Assembly (NCBI GenBank): GCA_030426745.1
Contig: JAUHYB010000005.1
Coordinates: 1 to 36,417 of the forward strand
Direction: 5' to 3'
Source: a bacterium
GTDB lineage: Bacteria > Planctomycetota > UBA1135 > GCA-002686595
DNA length: 36,417 bases
Part shown: positions 1 to 28,488 of the stretch, in pieces
How the letters are laid out: each line of letters begins with the position of its first letter
Position numbering within the stretch: position 1 is the first letter of the stretch
Translations under genes and position numbers: made by a program
Notes under the pieces: model-generated
The model's database searches: none
Told to the model about the DNA's origin: nothing
The model's input: the letters and a program-made list of their open reading frames with translations, nothing else

Positions 1-31
1 GTCGTGTCGTCGAATGCGCCGCCCGGACCGA

Positions 32-883
32 CTACGCCGGCAGGCGGTACAACCCCCCCGGCGCGCGGACGACGCGGCCCTCCAGCTCGTGCGCGACCAG
101 CTCGACCAGCACGTCGGACAGCTCGCGCCCCAGGCGCTCCGCCAGCTCGTCCGCGGACAGCGTCTCGCCGACGAGCGCCTCGAGCAGCGGGCCTTCCGGT
201 CGCGGCGGCGCCGGCCGCGCGCGCGAAGCGTCGCCCAGCAGCTCGCCGACCAGCTCCTCGGGGCTCTCGATCAACGCGGCGCCCTCGCGCAACAAGCGGT
301 GCGTCCCGCGCGACATCGGGTGGTCGACGCGGCCGGGCAGCGCGTACACGGCGCGACCCTGGTCGGCCGCCCAGCGCGCGGTGATCAGCGAACCCGACGC
401 GGCCGCCGCCTCGATCACGACGACGGCTTCCGACAGCCCGGAGATCACGCGGTTGCGCAGCGGGAAGTGGTGCGGCCGCGGCCCTTGGCCCGGCGGGAAC
501 TCGGACAGCAACAGGCCGCGCTCGGCGATCTCGCCCGCCAGCGGCACGTCCGGCCACGGCACGTCCACGCCCGAACCGAGCACCGCGATCGTGTCGCCGC
601 CCGCCGCCATCGCCGCGCGGTGCGCCGCCTGGTCCACGCCGCGCGCCATGCCGCTGACGACGACGATGCCCGCGGCGGCCAGCGCGCGTCCGAAGCGCTC
701 GGCCTGGGCCTCGCCGTAGGGTGTCGGCGACCGCGTGCCGACGATCGCGACGCGGCGCAGCGCGCCCAGCAGCTCGGCGCGTCCGCGCAGCCACAGGTGT
801 TCGGGGGGTCCGTCGATGGTCTCGAGCGCCGGCGGCCACGACGGGCCGCCGGTCGAGATGCGCAGGGGGGCGGTGGTGCTCAC
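32..883 (-). CDS. dprA: DNA-processing protein DprA (short form)
   Basis: Probable DprA/Smf, the cytoplasmic protein that binds incoming single-stranded DNA during transformation and loads RecA. The 283-residue product opens with the family phrase for the start of the Rossmann-like domain (PPALETIDGPPEHLWLRG), then AIVGTRSPTPYG, VVSGMARGVDQAAH, AVLGSGVDVPWP, SEFPPG, FPLRNRVISGLS and ASGSLITARWA, the usual DprA order. The last 60 or so residues look like the DprA winged-helix domain. The N-terminal SAM-like helical domain found in many DprA proteins is absent. I chose GTG at 883 because the frame upstream of it is arginine-rich and overlaps the DUF309 gene; there is no ATG and only a weak ribosome site. 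The stop (TAG) is at 32-34. It lies 56 bp downstream of the DUF309 gene and is probably co-transcribed with it. Family certain, start less so. Confidence 0.9.
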   Translation of the reverse strand: MSTTAPLRISTGGPSWPPALETIDGPPEHLWLRGRAELLGALRRVAIVGTRSPTPYGEAQAERFGRALAAAGIVVVSGMARGVDQAAHRAAMAAGGDTIAVLGSGVDVPWPDVPLAGEIAERGLLLSEFPPGQGPRPHHFPLRNRVISGLSEAVVVIEAAAASGSLITARWAADQGRAVYALPGRVDHPMSRGTHRLLREGAALIESPEELVGELLGDASRARPAPPRPEGPLLEALVGETLSADELAERLGRELSDVLVELVAHELEGRVVRAPGGLYRLPA

Positions 884-939: not shown

Positions 940-1347
940 TCAGGCCATCGGGACGCGCGGCCCGCCGCCGGCGGGGAAGGGCACGACCTCGTCCGGCCCG
1001 GCGCGCAAGAGGGGATCGAGCGCCCCGCGCATCGCCTCCAGGAACCCCGCGACGTCGACGCCGCGGTGTGTCGGCAGGTAGGGCGCCAGGTACCGCCGGT
1101 GCCCGCGGTACAGCTTGCGCGCGCCGTCCGGGTCGCCGTCGCGCCAGTGGTGCAGGCAGATCGCGGCCTGGATCAGGCCCTTGAAGAAGTCGGCGTCCGC
1201 GCCCTCGTTCTTCAGCCAGAGCACTTCCCAGGCTTCGTGCGCGTCGTGGTACTCGCCCGCGTCGAACAGGCGCGCGGCCTCGACGAGGCGCTCGTGCGCG
1301 CCGGCGTCGTCGAAGTCGAGGTCGGGGTCGTCTTCGTCCAGTCCCAT
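940..1347 (-). CDS. DUF309 family protein
   Basis: Small 135-residue cytoplasmic protein of the DUF309 family. The family core is visible: EYHDAHEAWEVLW, then FFKGLIQAAICLHHW, then GARKLYRGHRRYLAPY. It is predicted all-helical, and its function is not established. The start ATG (complement of 1345-1347) is the last base triplet of the left arm of the inverted repeat. An upstream in-frame ATG at 1374 lies inside the repeat and would place the promoter's -10 box within the gene, so the downstream ATG is preferred. With a -10-like TATCGT about 10 nt before the ATG, the transcript is probably leaderless. It is divergent from the DCC gene at 1467 and is followed by dprA on the same strand. Confidence 0.82.
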   Translation of the reverse strand: MGLDEDDPDLDFDDAGAHERLVEAARLFDAGEYHDAHEAWEVLWLKNEGADADFFKGLIQAAICLHHWRDGDPDGARKLYRGHRRYLAPYLPTHRGVDVAGFLEAMRGALDPLLRAGPDEVVPFPAGGGPRVPMA

Positions 1348-1469
1348 GCGGGGGGCGACGATACCGTGCCGCACAACAGGTTGTCACCGGGAGAGACGGT
1401 CCGGACCGGTCAGCGTCCTTGGCCCGGTGACAACATGTCGTGCGGCACGGTATCGTCGCCCCCCGCATG
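1345..1469. promoter_or_regulatory. Symmetric divergent promoter in a 47-bp inverted repeat
   Basis: Left arm 1345-1391 and right arm 1423-1469 are reverse complements at 45 of 47 positions. Each arm ends exactly at the ATG of the gene reading outward (DUF309 on minus, DCC protein on plus), and pairing stops at the next base. Each arm carries GTGACA, 18 bp, TATCGT, then 10 nt to the ATG (on plus: GTGACA 1427-1432, TATCGT 1451-1456), which fits a sigma70-type leaderless promoter. Both mismatches fall between the two boxes. The 31-bp centre holds a perfect 12-bp palindrome, CGGTCCGGACCG (1397-1408), a possible operator. Promoter function is inferred; the repeat is directly visible. Confidence 0.7.
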
Positions 1470-2573
1470 CGCGCCGCCCCTCCGACCCCGACGAACGGCT
1501 GGACCGGCGGGCAATACAGCCTCTACCGCGTCGCCCTGGCCGCGGTCCTGATCGCGCTCGTCTGGATCCCGATGCCGACGACCACGCTCAGCGGCTGGTT
1601 GCCGTGGAGCGGGCAGCTCACGATGAGCGACGCGCTGCGCGTCCCGTTGACGGCGATCGCATGCTGCATCGCGGCGGGCTTCTTCGACCGCTGGTTCGCG
1701 GCCGTGGCGCTGGTCGCGGCCTTCTGCCTGGGGCGCGGGTACGCGTGGTGGCTGGTGCAGCCGCTCTTGCTGGCGCACGCGCTGACGCCGCCGGCGCCGT
1801 TCGGGTCGATCATCGCGTTGCAGCGGCCGGACCCCGGCGGCGGTTGGCGGCGCTCGCGCGAGAACCTCGCCGTCGCGTCGCTGGCGGTCTACTCGAGCCT
1901 CGCCGCCGTCGCCGTCTCGGTCTCGACGTCCGGATCGGGCCGGGGCGAGAGCGCCGCCGCGTGGGCCCTCGTCTGGGGGTTGGCCGCCTGTGGTTCGCTC
2001 GTCGCGTCTCGCAACGTGGTGTTCCAGCGCGCCACCTGGTTCGGTTGGGTCGCGTACTGCGCCTACGCGATGATCGCGAGCTCGGGTCCGCACGCGTGGT
2101 GGCTGGCGTTGATCCCGGTGACGCTCGCGACCTTCGATCCCGCGATCGTCCGCCCGCGCCGCCGGGGCGACGGACAGGAAGTCGTCTACTACGACGGCGA
2201 CTGCGGGCTCTGCCACCGCACCGTGCGCTTCCTCCTCGCCGAGGACGCCGCCGCGCACTTCCGCTTCGCGGCGCTGCAGGGCGACCACTTCGCGCAGCAC
2301 GTGAGCGAGGCGGAGCGCGCGGCGCTCGGCGACAGCGTCGTCGTCCGCACCGGCGACGGGCGCCTGCTGCAGCGCTCCAGCGCGATCGTCCACCTCCTGC
2401 TCGCGCTCGGCGGGCTGTGGCGCGTGATCGGCAGCGCGGCCTGGATCTTCCCGCGGCCTTTACGCGACGTCGCGTACGACGGCGTCGCGCGCGTGCGCAA
2501 GCGCCTGTTCGCGGCGCCCGAGGGCCTGTGCCCGATGATCCCGCCGGACCTCGGCGCGCGCTTCCTGCCGTAG
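1467..2573 (+). CDS. Membrane protein with C-terminal DCC thiol-oxidoreductase domain
   Basis: 368-residue protein with two parts. Residues 1 to about 235 form a membrane domain with several hydrophobic helices, and its opening GGQYSLYR resembles the start of HTTM/DCC-type membrane proteins. From about residue 238 there is a DCC (DUF393) domain with VVYYDGDCGLCHRTVRFL. The two cysteines of DGDCGLC are the expected redox pair of this thioredoxin-like family. Substrate unknown. The ATG at 1467 ends the right arm of the inverted repeat; an in-frame ATG at 1440 lies inside the promoter arm and is rejected. Probably leaderless and co-regulated with the divergent DUF309 gene. Confidence 0.85.
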   Translation: MRAAPPTPTNGWTGGQYSLYRVALAAVLIALVWIPMPTTTLSGWLPWSGQLTMSDALRVPLTAIACCIAAGFFDRWFAAVALVAAFCLGRGYAWWLVQPLLLAHALTPPAPFGSIIALQRPDPGGGWRRSRENLAVASLAVYSSLAAVAVSVSTSGSGRGESAAAWALVWGLAACGSLVASRNVVFQRATWFGWVAYCAYAMIASSGPHAWWLALIPVTLATFDPAIVRPRRRGDGQEVVYYDGDCGLCHRTVRFLLAEDAAAHFRFAALQGDHFAQHVSEAERAALGDSVVVRTGDGRLLQRSSAIVHLLLALGGLWRVIGSAAWIFPRPLRDVAYDGVARVRKRLFAAPEGLCPMIPPDLGARFLP

Positions 2574-4810: not shown

Positions 4811-7330
<2,520 letters not shown>

Positions 7331-7613: not shown

Positions 7614-8123
7614 TCAGCTGCGGTCGGCTTCCAGGTGCTGGATGCGATCCCGCAGCCGGGCGGCGTTCTCGTACGCCTCCTCGCGGATCGCGACCTCCAG
7701 CTCCTGGCGCAGCTCGGCGAGGTTCCGCATGCGGTCCCACTCCTCCTCGCTGACGCCGGGCAGGCGGCCGACGTGCTTCGTCGAGCCGTGGACGCGCTCC
7801 AGCAGGTCGGAGATCTGGTCGCCGAAGGCCTCGTAACAGCCCGGACAGCCGAGGCGGCCGCGCCGGCGGAAGTCCTCCAGCGTCAGCCCGCACTGGGAGC
7901 AGCCGACCTGCTCGCGCCGCCGCGAGTTCTGCTTGGCGGAGATCTGCAGCAGCTTCCAGATGTCGGCCATCGACTTCTTCTTGGCCGCGCCGCTGAACAA
8001 GAGGTTCATCCCGTCCGCGCAGAGCTCGCAGTAGTGGTGCTCGACGACGGCGCCCGGAGGCTCTTCCGCGACGTCCGTGACGTGGACCGTCGCCTCGTTC
8101 TTGTGGCAGTGCTCGCAGTTCAT
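7614..8123 (-). CDS. mcsA: McsA-like zinc-finger/UVR protein
   Basis: 169 residues. Four CxxC pairs are visible (CEHC at 3-6, CELC near 32, CSQC near 75, CPGC near 93), the zinc-binding arrangement of McsA. A C-terminal UVR motif follows (LRQELEVAIREEAYENAARLRDRI). In Firmicutes, McsA activates the protein-arginine kinase McsB and works with ClpC. Here it precedes clpC but mcsB is not between them, so it may act directly on ClpC, whose middle domain carries the same motif, or mcsB may be elsewhere. The ATG at 8123 follows a weak ribosome site and a recognisable promoter. Confidence 0.88.
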   Translation of the reverse strand: MNCEHCHKNEATVHVTDVAEEPPGAVVEHHYCELCADGMNLLFSGAAKKKSMADIWKLLQISAKQNSRRREQVGCSQCGLTLEDFRRRGRLGCPGCYEAFGDQISDLLERVHGSTKHVGRLPGVSEEEWDRMRNLAELRQELEVAIREEAYENAARLRDRIQHLEADRS

Positions 8124-22377: not shown

Positions 22378-24480
22378 ATGCAACGCAACAACCTCCGCTT
22401 CGCGCTCGGCGCGCTGCTGTTCGCCGGCGTGACAGCCGTCGACGCCGCTGCGCAGTGCCCGGCCGCCGACGCCTTCGAGCCGAACGACGACTGCCTCTCG
22501 GCCACCCCGGTGACCCCCGGCAGCTACGCGAACCTCACGCTCGAGGGCCCGCTGAACGGCGAGAACCAGGACTTCTACTCGATCAGCGTCCCGGCCGGCG
22601 AGATTATCACGGTCGACCTGACCTTCGCGACGGCGACGGGTGACATCGACCTGTACCTGTACGACACGACCACGCCGAACTGCGGCGGGACGGCGACCGG
22701 CGACTACCTGATCCGCGGCTTCACCGGCAGCGACAACGAGCAGGTCAGCTGGACGAACTCGACCGGCGCCGCCGAGACCTACACGATCATGGTCGACGCG
22801 TGGGACTCGGACAGCGACTTCGGCTGCAACGACTACTCGATGGACATCACCGTCGCGCCGGACCCCTGCACGACCGCCGTCGATGACGGCCTCGAGGAGA
22901 ACGACACCTGCGGCGCCGCCGTCGCGCTGGCCGGCGGTTCGACGACCTCCCTGTTCACGTCGACCACCGACGAGGACTACTACACGATCAACGTCCCCGC
23001 GGCGCAGATCCTGACCGTCGACGTCTCGTACGCCTCGGGCGTCAACGCCGACATCGACCTCGAGCTGTTCGACGACCTCGCTTGCACGAACCAGGTCGAC
23101 TTCAGCTTCAGCACCGGCGGTACCGGCCAGGTCACCTGGACGAACACGACCGGCGCCACGGCGACCCTGGTGATGCGCGCCGCTCCCGACGCCGCTACGG
23201 GCTCCTGCAACAACTACGACCTGAACGTGGCGCTGGCGTTCGACCCCTGCCAGACGGGCACGGACGACGCCCTCGAGGACAACGACTCCTGCGCGACCGC
23301 GGCGGGTCTGGGCGCCGGCGCGCACGCGGGCCTCTTCACCTCGACGGCGGACGAGGACTACTACCTCGTCACGGTCCCGGCCGGTGAGATCCTGACGGTC
23401 GACGTCACCTACATCTCGGGCGTCAACGCCGACGTCGACCTCGAGCTGTTCGACGACCTCGCCTGCACGAACCAGGTCGACTTCAGCTTCAGCTTCGGCG
23501 GCACCGGCACGGTCGAGTGGGTGAACGCCACCGGCGCCGCCGCGACCGTCGTCCTGCGCGTGGCGCCCGACGCGGCGACCGGCGACTGCAACGACTACGA
23601 CCTCAACATCGCGTCCGCTCCCGATCCGTGCCTCGACCCGCTCGCGGACGACGGCTTCGAGGACAACGACGACTGCGCTTCGGCGGTCTCGATGGCTGAC
23701 GGCACCTACACGGGCCTGTTCACCGTCGACAACGACGAGGACTACTACGAGGTCACGCTGGCCGACGGCGACACGCTGAACGTCGACATCCTGTTCACGG
23801 ACGCCAACGGCGACCTGGACCTCGTGCTGTACGAGAGCCTGGCGGACTGCAACCTCGACGTTGACGCGGCTTCGAGCACCGGCGTCGTCGACAACGAGTC
23901 GGTCAGCTACACCAACACCACGGGTTCGACCCTGACGATGATCATCCGCGTCTACCACTGGACGGGTGACTCGGCGTCGGACTGCAACACCTACGACATG
24001 ATCATCGACGGCTCGGGCGGCTCGGCGGCGACGCCGTTCTGCGCGGGTGACGGCTCGGCGGGCGCGTGCCCCTGCGCCAACGAGTCGGCGGTCGGCGCCG
24101 GCGAGGGCTGCAACAGCTCGCTCGGCTTCGGCGCGATCCTGACGGCGGCCGGCTCGGCCAGCGTCGCCAACGACGACATGGTGTTCACGCTCAGCCAAGC
24201 GCGTCCGAACCAGCCCAGCCTGCTGGTCCAGGGTTCGGTCGCCGTGGCGCTGCCGTTCAAGGACGGCCTGCTGTGCATGGGCAACCCGACCGAGCGCCTC
24301 GAAGTCGTCTTCCTGGACGGCACGGGCACCGGCTCGACCACGGTCTCGATCGTCACCGAGGGCAACGTCTCGGTCGGTCAGACCCGCTACTACCAGCAGT
24401 GGTTCCGCGATCCGGGCGGCGTCTCGCCGTGCGGCTCGGGCTCGAACTTCTCGGGCGGCCTGATCGTCAACTGGATGTAG
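22378..24480 (+). CDS. Secreted PPC-repeat protein 2 (four modules + C-terminal domain)
   Basis: 700 residues. The signal peptide ends at AAAQ (residue 26). Modules start near residues 27, 161, 288 and 415; the C-terminal domain starts near 545 after the linker GSGGSAATPFC. Module 1 is the longer type with YLYDTTTPNCGGTATGDYL and IRGFTGSDNE. Modules 2 and 3 are internal duplicates sharing DLELFDDLACTNQVDFSFS at near-identical DNA. Module 4 is a third type (LVLYESLADCNLDVDAAS). The tail has CPCANESAVGAGEGCNSS and YYQQWFRDPGG. A 215-bp block of the tail is identical to that of protein 3. The chain is very acidic, which fits calcium-stabilised surface repeats (inference). Confidence 0.88.
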   Translation: MQRNNLRFALGALLFAGVTAVDAAAQCPAADAFEPNDDCLSATPVTPGSYANLTLEGPLNGENQDFYSISVPAGEIITVDLTFATATGDIDLYLYDTTTPNCGGTATGDYLIRGFTGSDNEQVSWTNSTGAAETYTIMVDAWDSDSDFGCNDYSMDITVAPDPCTTAVDDGLEENDTCGAAVALAGGSTTSLFTSTTDEDYYTINVPAAQILTVDVSYASGVNADIDLELFDDLACTNQVDFSFSTGGTGQVTWTNTTGATATLVMRAAPDAATGSCNNYDLNVALAFDPCQTGTDDALEDNDSCATAAGLGAGAHAGLFTSTADEDYYLVTVPAGEILTVDVTYISGVNADVDLELFDDLACTNQVDFSFSFGGTGTVEWVNATGAAATVVLRVAPDAATGDCNDYDLNIASAPDPCLDPLADDGFEDNDDCASAVSMADGTYTGLFTVDNDEDYYEVTLADGDTLNVDILFTDANGDLDLVLYESLADCNLDVDAASSTGVVDNESVSYTNTTGSTLTMIIRVYHWTGDSASDCNTYDMIIDGSGGSAATPFCAGDGSAGACPCANESAVGAGEGCNSSLGFGAILTAAGSASVANDDMVFTLSQARPNQPSLLVQGSVAVALPFKDGLLCMGNPTERLEVVFLDGTGTGSTTVSIVTEGNVSVGQTRYYQQWFRDPGGVSPCGSGSNFSGGLIVNWM

Positions 24481-25185: not shown

Positions 25186-25988
25186 GCGGCGCCGTCGATC
25201 TCGCGTGGTGGCAGCTCGCCGTCGCGGGCGGGCTGGTGTTCGTCGCGGGCGGGTTGTCGGTGGCGCTCGGGCTGGGCATCGGTCGTCGCCTCGCGATCGC
25301 TTCGACGCGGACCGTGGTGCAACTCGGGATCCTCGGCGCGATCCTGGCGCCGCTCTTCGAGGCGGAGCTCGCGTGGCTCGTCGGGCTCGCCGCGCTGGTG
25401 ATGATCGGCCTCGCGTCCGTCGAAGCCGTGCGCCGTACGGGGCGTCGCTACCGCGGTGTGCGTCGCGACGCCTTCTTCTCGCTCGCCGTCGCCGGCGGCA
25501 GCACGGCCCTGCTCGCGACGACCGTCATCGTGCGCGTCGAGCCGTGGTGGGATCCGCGGTACGTGATCCCGATCCTCGGCATGATCCTGGGGAACGGACT
25601 GACCGGGATCAGCCTGGGCCTCGAGATGTGCCTCGAGGAGCTGGACGACGGGCGCGAGCGCGTCGAGGCGCTGCTCGCGATGGGGGCGACGCCGCGCGAG
25701 GCCGCGCGACCGGTCGCGCGGAAGGCGCTGCGGGGCGGCCTCGTCCCGATCCTCAACTCGATGAGCGTCGTCGGCTTGGTGACGGTGCCGGGGATGATGA
25801 CCGGCCAGATCCTGGGCGGCACGGACCCGATGCTGGCGGCCCGATACCAGATCATGATCCTGTTCCTGATCGCCGGGGCCACCGCTCTCGGCACGGCGGG
25901 CGTCGTGCTGCTCGCGCTGCGCGCGCTCTTCGATCCCCGCGGCCGCCTCCGCCTCGAGCGTCTCGCGCGTCGACGCGCGGCCGGTTGA
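25182..25988 (+). CDS. fetB: ABC transporter permease, FetB (UPF0014) type
   Basis: 268 residues with about six or seven hydrophobic helices. Family hallmarks are STRTVVQLGILGAIL, MILGNGLTGISLGLE, LLAMGATPREAARPV, and SVVGLVTVPGMMTGQILGG..P..AARYQIMILFLI. Inner-membrane half of the predicted iron exporter with FetA. The GTG start overlaps the fetA stop (GTGA). The last residues (RRRAAG) and the TGA stop are supplied by the first unit of the palindromic repeat array, so array changes could alter the C-terminus. Confidence 0.87.
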   Translation: MSGAVDLAWWQLAVAGGLVFVAGGLSVALGLGIGRRLAIASTRTVVQLGILGAILAPLFEAELAWLVGLAALVMIGLASVEAVRRTGRRYRGVRRDAFFSLAVAGGSTALLATTVIVRVEPWWDPRYVIPILGMILGNGLTGISLGLEMCLEELDDGRERVEALLAMGATPREAARPVARKALRGGLVPILNSMSVVGLVTVPGMMTGQILGGTDPMLAARYQIMILFLIAGATALGTAGVVLLALRALFDPRGRLRLERLARRRAAG

Positions 25989-26181
25989 TCCGCGCGTCGA
26001 CGCGCGGCCGGTTGATCCGCGCGTCGACGCGCAGCCGGGTGATCCGCGCGTCGACGCGCGCAGCCGGGTGATCCGCGCGTCGACGCGCGCAGCCGGGTGA
26101 TCCGCGCGTCGACGCGCGCAGCCGGGGGATCCGCGCGCCGACGCGCGGCCCGGGGATCCGCGGGCCGACGCGCGGCCGGGG
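25973..26181. repeat. Array of about eight palindrome-bearing 27-29 bp repeats
   Basis: Direct repeats begin at 25987, 26014, 26041, 26070, 26099, 26128 and 26155, with a partial unit at about 25973-25986. Units start GATCCGCGCGTCGACGCGCG and end in GCCGG plus 2-3 bases. Six of the units carry CGCGCGTCGACGCGC(G), a palindrome of up to 16 bp; the last two are degraded. There are no unique spacers. Lengths change from 27 to 29 bp by insertion of CA or similar. It overlaps the end of fetB. It may form a strong RNA or cruciform structure, or bind protein. Confidence 0.88.
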
Positions 26182-26382: not shown

Positions 26383-28488
26383 ATGCAACTTTCTTGGACC
26401 CGACTCGGCCTGGGCGGACTGGCCGCCGCCCTGCTGACGACCGGCGCCGCGTGGGCGCAGTGCCCCGGCACCGACACCTTCGAGGACAACGACGACTGCG
26501 CCACGGCGGCGGTCATCACACCCGGCTCGTACACGAACCTGACCGCCAACGGCATCTTCAACGTCGGCGGCGAGGACGCGGACTTCTACGAGATCACCGT
26601 GGCCGCGGGAGACATCCTGTACGTCGACTGCCTGCACGCCGTCGCCGGCGGTGACATCGACACCTACCTGTACGACGCGACGAACCCGACCTGCGGGGAC
26701 CAGTCGACGTACCTCGTGCGGGGCTACACCAGCACCGACGACGAGACCTGGAGCTGGGCCAACACCACGGGCGCGGCCGCGACGTACATCATCGAGATCG
26801 ATCCGTGGAACAGCGACACGGACTTCGACTGCAACGACTACACGCTGAACATCGCGACCGCGCCGGATCCCTGCGCGTCGCCGACCGACGACGGCCTCGA
26901 GGAGAACGACTCCTGCGGCGCCGCCGTCGCGCTGGCCGCCGGCGCGCACACGGGGCTGTTCGTGTCGGACGTCGACGAGGACTACTACACGATCAACGTC
27001 GCCGCCGCGGAGATCCTCACCGTGGACGTCAGCTACCTGTCCGGCGTGTCCGCCGACGTCGACGTGGAGCTGTTCGACGACCTCGCCTGCGCGAACTCGG
27101 TCGACTTCAGCTTCAGCTTCGGCGGCACGGGCAACGTGACCTGGACGAACACGACCGGCGCCGCGGCGACGGTCGTGCTGCGCGCCGCCGTGGATGCGGC
27201 GACGGGCACCTGCAACGACTACGACCTGAACGTGTCGACGGCCCCGGATCCCTGCCAGGCGGGTACCGACGACGGGCTCGAGGACAACGACTCCTGCGGG
27301 GCGGCTGTCGCGCTCGCGGCGGGCTCGCACACGGGCCTGTTCACCTCTTCGGCGGACGAGGACTACTACCTCGTCACCGTCCCGACGGGCGACATCCTGA
27401 CCGTCGACGTGACCTACGTCTCCGGCGTGAACGCCGACATCGACCTCGAGCTGTTCGATGACCTCGCCTGTGCGAACCAGGTCGACTTCAGCTTCAGCTT
27501 CGGCGGCACGGGCACGGTCGAGTGGTCGAACTCCACCGGCGCGGCGGCCACGGTCGTCCTGCGCGTTGCTCCGGACACCGCGACCGGTGACTGCAACGAC
27601 TACGACCTGAACGTGTCGACGGCGCCGGATCCCTGCCTCGATCCGCTCGCGGACGACGGCCTGGAGGACAACGACGACTGCTTCAACGCGGTCCCGATGG
27701 TGGATGGATCGACCACGGGTCTGTTCGTCAGCAAGGCCGACGAGGACTTCTACGAGGTCCAGGTCGCGGACGGCGACATGCTCACCGTCGACATCTTCTT
27801 CACGGACGCCACGGCGGACGTGGACATCTACCTGTACGACGATCAGATCGCGTGCGGCGACTTGTCGAGCTACCTCGTGCGCGGCTTCACCGCTTCGGAC
27901 GACGAGTCGATCAGCTGGACGAACACCAGCGGTACGGTCGCGACCTATTACATCCAGGTCGTCGTCTTCGACTCGACCTTCAACGGTGACTGCAACGACT
28001 ACGACATGACGATCACCGGCTCGGGCGGCTCGGCGGCGACGCCGTTCTGCGCGGGTGACGGCTCGGCGGGCGCGTGCCCGTGCGCCAACGAGTCCGCGGT
28101 CGGCGCCGGTGAGGGCTGCAACAGCTCGCTCGGCTTCGGCGCGGTGCTGACGGCCGCGGGGTCGAACAGCGTCGCCAACGACGACATGGTGTTCACGCTC
28201 AGCCAAGCGCGTCCGAACCAGCCCAGCCTGCTGGTCCAGGGTTCGGTCGCCGTGGCGCTGCCGTTCAAGGACGGCCTGCTGTGCATGGGCAACCCGACCG
28301 AGCGCCTCGAAGTCGTCTTCCTGGACGGCACGGGCACCGGCTCGACCACGGTCTCGATCGTCACCGAGGGCAACGTCTCGGCCGGCCAGACCCGCTACTA
28401 CCAGCAGTGGTTCCGCGATCCGGGCGGCGTCTCGCCGTGCGGCTCGGGCTCGAACTTCTCGGGCGGCCTGATCGTGGTCTGGATCTGA
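26383..28488 (+). CDS. Secreted PPC-repeat protein 3 (four modules + C-terminal domain)
   Basis: 701 residues with the same module plan as protein 2 (module starts near 27, 161, 288, 415; tail from about 545). The signal peptide ends at AWAQ. Module 1 opens CPGTDTFEDNDDC, and its loop has YLVRGYTSTDDE. Modules 2 and 3 are near duplicates of each other and of protein 2's (DLELFDDLACANQVDFSFS). Module 4 differs from protein 2's fourth: it is the LVRGFT type, as if a module was exchanged. The tail's central 215 bp match protein 2 exactly, while the stop region and 3' flank differ. Ribosome site AGGAGAA 11 nt before the ATG. Confidence 0.88.
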   Translation: MQLSWTRLGLGGLAAALLTTGAAWAQCPGTDTFEDNDDCATAAVITPGSYTNLTANGIFNVGGEDADFYEITVAAGDILYVDCLHAVAGGDIDTYLYDATNPTCGDQSTYLVRGYTSTDDETWSWANTTGAAATYIIEIDPWNSDTDFDCNDYTLNIATAPDPCASPTDDGLEENDSCGAAVALAAGAHTGLFVSDVDEDYYTINVAAAEILTVDVSYLSGVSADVDVELFDDLACANSVDFSFSFGGTGNVTWTNTTGAAATVVLRAAVDAATGTCNDYDLNVSTAPDPCQAGTDDGLEDNDSCGAAVALAAGSHTGLFTSSADEDYYLVTVPTGDILTVDVTYVSGVNADIDLELFDDLACANQVDFSFSFGGTGTVEWSNSTGAAATVVLRVAPDTATGDCNDYDLNVSTAPDPCLDPLADDGLEDNDDCFNAVPMVDGSTTGLFVSKADEDFYEVQVADGDMLTVDIFFTDATADVDIYLYDDQIACGDLSSYLVRGFTASDDESISWTNTSGTVATYYIQVVVFDSTFNGDCNDYDMTITGSGGSAATPFCAGDGSAGACPCANESAVGAGEGCNSSLGFGAVLTAAGSNSVANDDMVFTLSQARPNQPSLLVQGSVAVALPFKDGLLCMGNPTERLEVVFLDGTGTGSTTVSIVTEGNVSAGQTRYYQQWFRDPGGVSPCGSGSNFSGGLIVVWI

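Follow-up and report, generated by a model that had tools for sequence, protein, structure and literature searches.

What is a near-perfect inverted repeat doing between two divergent genes, with its arms finishing at both start codons? In the window (the whole 36,417-nt stretch of planctomycete DNA analysed here), the starts of a gene for a DUF309 protein (940-1347, minus strand, ATG at 1347; Pfam PF03745, E 6e-20; start position matching that in relatives) and of a gene for a DCC1-like thiol-disulfide oxidoreductase (1467-2573, plus strand; PF04134, E 1.3e-19) lie 119 nt apart, and a hairpin element occupies the whole gap. Both genes are real as judged from their Pfam matches, and dprA lies downstream of the DUF309 gene (32-883, minus strand; TIGR00732, 223 bits) in a synteny kept in relatives.

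The inverted repeat consists of two 47-nt arms that match at 45 positions, the left one at 1345-1391 (its outward, minus strand facing DUF309) and the right one at 1423-1469 (its outward, plus strand facing the DCC gene). The mismatches, at 1375 and 1379, fall within the spacer of both promoter-like sites, and pairing ends at C1344/C1470, immediately beyond the two ATGs. Each strand reads GTGACA, 18 nt, TATCGT, CGCCCCCCGC (10 nt) and ATG: for DUF309, a weak -35-like hexamer within the conserved arm (1382-1387, minus strand) and a -10-like hexamer 10 nt before the ATG (1358-1363, minus strand); for DCC, the same two hexamers at 1427-1432 and 1451-1456 (plus strand), the latter again 10 nt before the ATG. 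The 31-nt centre between the arms (1392-1422) holds a 12-bp palindrome, CGGTCCGGACCG (1397-1408), and is partly common to copies on contig C108 (CCGGACCG). The initial annotation had described this stretch as a mirror-image divergent leaderless promoter, and all of its numbers hold. The single-stranded fold of the inverted repeat reaches -69.5 kcal/mol (shuffles: -29.8 +/- 3.0; z = -13), and no other near-perfect inverted repeat with closely spaced arms in the window is as long as the hairpin at 1345-1469. No terminator-like site was found, and an Rfam scan of the window returned a tRNA alone, the hairpin matching no known RNA family. Elsewhere in the window, a 27-bp unit with a perfect palindrome (CGCGCGTCGACGCGCGGCCGGGTGATC) is repeated about 7.8 times between two large reading frames (25964-26180), and repeats of 381 bp occur within 22950-23834 and 26828-27675, two stretches that apparently belong to paralogous genes.

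A dispersed repeat family and an associated transposase

The host genome is a metagenome-assembled genome (MAG; 81% complete, 704 contigs), and the search for further copies of the arm that the initial annotation had proposed was productive. A stretch of about 29 nt of the arm, GATACCGWGCCGCACACCTCGTTGTCGCC, recurs at about 20 places, in most cases paired in inverted orientation over 59-141 bp, and a sequence-only model of 29 positions recovered, at E<=0.035, 20 arms spread over six contigs (C108, C121, C125, C253, C265 and C691). In the window, the terminal repeats of this mobile-element family (model R1, GATACCGTGCCGCACAACAGGTTGTCACC) are at 1360-1388 (left; E 2.3e-4, own genome) and, inverted, at 1426-1454 (right; E 3.7e-4). 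A second hairpin of the same genome (C108:2344-2452) shares 75% identity across the element, C265 and C125 carry the 15-nt arm core in inverted pairs, and the aligned copies give the arm as GATACCGWGCCGCACANCTCGTTGTCGCC. The repeat is found away from promoters too. On C108, one copy makes up the 3' end of the reading frame for an FMN oxidoreductase and is closely followed by a gene of the glyoxalase family. About six sites of the family cluster within 20 kb of C265, with weaker pairs at 1173/1250 and 19862/19969, and a composite element of three arms at C108 2852-2998 suggests nested or tandem insertion.

A search of 60 relatives with the DNA of the whole element gave no match, and copies in relatives were reached with the short-arm model, which detected arms in 30 of the 61 family genomes at E<=0.05, clear inverted pairs included. 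In one of these relatives (G036) the arm matches number 27; several are grouped into arrays of direct and inverted copies, with the same tip in a different arrangement.

On contig C253, two arms (6914-6962 and 8025-8073) flank the gene for a 337-aa Y1 transposase, which is single copy in this genome. The protein carries an IS200-like Y1 domain (PF01797, E 6.7e-8) and scores 66.6 bits against the NCBIfam model REP_Tyr_transpos, under the model cut-off of 80; the HUH motif and a catalytic-type Tyr119 (the Tyr of VRYID) are invariant in four transposase homologues. A phmmer search of the transposase against the PDB gave no match, and a structure model and fold search were then used: the best PDB match of the modelled homologue from Pla163 (modest confidence, pLDDT 62, three sequences) was 4er8, a REP-associated tyrosine transposase with its REP hairpin (E 2.3e-5). 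The C-terminal region has a weak match to HTH_23 (E 1.2) and is helical in the modest-confidence model.

Homologues in other Planctomycetota, among them Planctomycetes bacterium Pla163 (CP036290.1), a relative from the same family, are 48-57% identical and are bounded by inverted repeats, 24-62 nt in length, that share the tip. Within the family, 30 of the 61 genomes encode a homologue, and flanking inverted repeats (score at least 12) were present at 21 of the 30 homologues examined, most with the tip TACSGWGYC. Across genomes, arm matches correlate loosely with the presence of the transposase (p 0.08; 0.018 for genomes with at least four arms). The transposase 3' end is 96% identical in another MAG, where unrelated DNA starts right after the tip, which fixes the boundary of the element at ...GTAT. 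At 6840-6918 of C253, a tRNA-Pro gene runs with its 3' end straight into the left repeat, a possible preferred landing site.

We consider it highly probable that the window element belongs to this family and is linked to the transposase, and its origin as a mobile repeat is strongly supported. The window element would then be a pair of terminal inverted repeats (TIRs) from a tyrosine-transposase element, placed back to back with a short centre between them, the enzyme encoded on C253 having presumably copied it to this place in trans via single-stranded hairpin DNA.

Palindromic flanks beyond the tips

The family repeat stops at 1360 and 1454, and a further 15 nt on each side lie outside it, making 15 perfect pairs. 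The left half, CATGCGGGGGGCGAC (1345-1359), is mirrored perfectly by the right half, GTCGCCCCCCGCATG (1455-1469), which finishes in the DCC start codon, and the two together form a 30-bp palindrome. Taken together, 26 elements have palindromic flanks beyond their tips (summed mirror match 56 vs 14.6 +/- 4.6 when shuffled; 0 of 5000 shuffles), also when the window element is left out (48 vs 13.4); the host genome alone, without the window, gives no significant excess (p 0.11), the signal coming mainly from relatives. The 15-nt outer symmetry of the window element is an extreme case of these family-wide palindromic flanks. Direct target duplications were sought at the boundaries of the 26 elements, and none was found.

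Whether the palindrome preceded the element is a close call. The outer symmetry may be younger than the insertion, a product of template switching across the hairpin in which one flank was copied, together with its start codon, onto the other, and we give this a little under an even chance. The 15 pairs are perfect and show no decay, a pre-existing palindrome of 30 bp between divergent ATGs would leave their promoters no room, and quasipalindrome correction is an established mutational route. Against this, short palindromic flanks are a family-wide feature, and some REP dimers have been reported to insert into palindromes (PMC3733652). In either case the element sits within a palindromic flank whose half-sites finish at both start codons.

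Promoter geometry at the element tips

The TANNNT -10 box at each tip of the window element lies 10 nt before the start codon, in the range of about 6-10 nt expected of a leaderless promoter, and boxes placed in this way have been described in leaderless genes of high-GC bacteria (PMC3160421). The leaderless reading of the initial annotation fits this genome: in gene-start statistics from about 0.49 Mb of contigs with a simple GC-by-codon-position gene filter, TANNNT occurs 6-10 nt before 37 of 260 first ATGs, against about 0.4 per position elsewhere, and 5-11 nt upstream of 50 tested starts, a control window giving 9. Among leaderless -10 hexamers TATCGT ranks first, although some of its counts are the elements themselves. 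Leaderless sites across the genome show little -35 signal, so the reading of GTGACA as a -35 element is weak.

The geometry TATNNT-6..10-ATG is present at 6 of 24 element ends, compared with 13 of 324 other TAT sites (p 8e-4), and at 4 of 22 ends without the window (p 0.017). The six ends come from five copies (both window ends, the right end of the C108 hairpin, C265:2562, C265:10638 and C691:5292), and five of these ends precede genes that have Pfam matches; by inspection, element ends in relatives rarely show the geometry. At the locus itself the starts are 119 nt apart and the gap is filled by the element, so that any promoter must lie within it. On this evidence the tips probably act as promoters for one or both genes: the outer tip of the arm (GGTATCGT) would supply a -10 box 10 nt ahead of the ATG, and the element probably drives both neighbours as leaderless transcripts.

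A mobile hairpin could also have tips that serve no promoter, with the adjacency to ATGs reflecting an insertion preference near starts, or promoters lying elsewhere. The lack of the geometry at many ends of the host genome and at most ends in relatives favours this, as does the weak -35 match, but the six ends with -10/start geometry, the rank of TATCGT among leaderless hexamers (with the bias in its counts noted above) and the filled gap weigh on the other side, and we regard unused tips as possible but unlikely. A far more elaborate arrangement, in which transposase and repeats form a promoter and regulator system, the hairpins spreading leaderless promoters in their tips and the C-terminal domain binding the tips to co-regulate the genes, seems improbable.

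The initial annotation had offered two explanations of the symmetry, an inverted copy of a whole promoter and selection that holds the expression of DUF309/dprA and DCC strictly equal. Part of the first stands, in that the two promoter-like sites are identical because they are inverted copies of one sequence; that sequence is a dispersed, transposase-associated repeat. Selection for equal expression becomes unnecessary, as the letters of the -35, spacer and -10 belong to the conserved terminal arm, which also occurs away from promoters. Relatives largely supply what the initial annotation had named as refuting it, a genome with the genes intact and the symmetry missing. About 28 related genomes have DUF309, most with dprA adjoining on the same contig, and its upstream neighbour is usually a co-directional gene; neither symmetry or hairpin nor a DCC neighbour was found there. 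Their DCC homologues sit in other contexts, usually behind another gene, and the DUF309/DCC junction of the window was found in no relative searched. The order of events suggested by these comparisons is that the element arrangement would have replaced the contexts that DUF309-dprA and DCC have in relatives; an empty site with the same two neighbours was not found among the genomes searched, so that insertion at this locus is presumed.

A divergent promoter built to be symmetric, or the promoter of one gene duplicated in inverted orientation, with the symmetry maintained so that both sides are equally expressed, is very improbable given that the arm is a dispersed repeat tied to a transposase gene and that both the gene pair and the symmetry are missing in relatives, even though the two sites and their 10-nt leader spacing are exactly equal and leaderless -10 boxes are common in the genome. 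An inverted chimera from assembly or amplification, conceivable in a fragmented MAG with artefact-prone hairpins, can be set aside almost entirely, given arms that differ at two sites, an asymmetric centre and independent copies on other contigs and in other genomes, one of them a complete isolate chromosome.

Comparison with known elements

The closest counterpart is the TIRtron/TIRYT class (Di Nocera et al. 2013, PMC3733652), in which a tyrosine transposase of the RAYT-like group is likewise flanked by long inverted repeats, and the TIRs are also dispersed elsewhere as singles and inverted dimers. The host genome has the corresponding parts, namely a transposase with HUH motif and catalytic Tyr, long TIRs that are not self-palindromic, and dispersed singles and dimers. 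The tip here is TACSGWGYC, whereas the reported motif is GGGGWSAS, which was not found in the TIR; that motif is present in part of the known TIRs, is not universal (PMC3733652) and is not a requirement for TIRYTs. A further difference is that the dimer here has a start codon on each side and a -10 box at each tip; promoter roles of TIR dimers were left open in that study (PMC3733652).

With REPIN/RAYT systems (Bertels and Rainey 2011, PMC3116915) the element shares two inverted repeats that form one long hairpin, a non-autonomous nature and a link to a single-copy, RAYT-like transposase gene. It differs in that a single arm is not palindromic (four single arms folded no better than shuffles, z 0.45, 0.17, 0.47 and -1.24), in that the foot tetranucleotide GTAG/GTGG is absent at the conserved tips, and in having few copies rather than hundreds. 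We therefore rejected strict REP/REPIN membership, as single arms do not fold and the GTAG tag is lacking. TnpA-Y1 proteins of subclass 2.1 (Quentin et al. 2018, PMC6006769) resemble the transposase in their Y1 core with an extra C-terminal region and in being associated with TIRs, not REPs, although the C-terminal HTH is only hinted at here. Like MITEs and mobile promoters, the element is a short non-coding inverted repeat able to bring a promoter to a gene; unlike them it comes without a direct target duplication, and both of its ends face start codons at leaderless spacing. A classical MITE of a DDE transposon was rejected on the former ground, there being no direct repeats at the boundary.

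As far as its sequence goes, the element fits the TIRtron/TIRYT class and not the REPINs in the strict sense. Taken as a whole, the feature is very likely a non-autonomous TIR dimer of a TIRtron, and this mobile hairpin has probably been put to use as a divergent leaderless promoter. The promoter hypothesis is directly testable at the six candidate ends in five copies, and the palindromic flanks of 26 elements offer a clue to the insertion sites of a poorly studied transposase group. A promoter role has been speculated as a reason for bacteria to retain hairpin repeats linked to transposases (PMC8049555). Leaderless expression in this organism seems to need little beyond a well-spaced -10 box, and a repeat tip that carries one could become a promoter anywhere.
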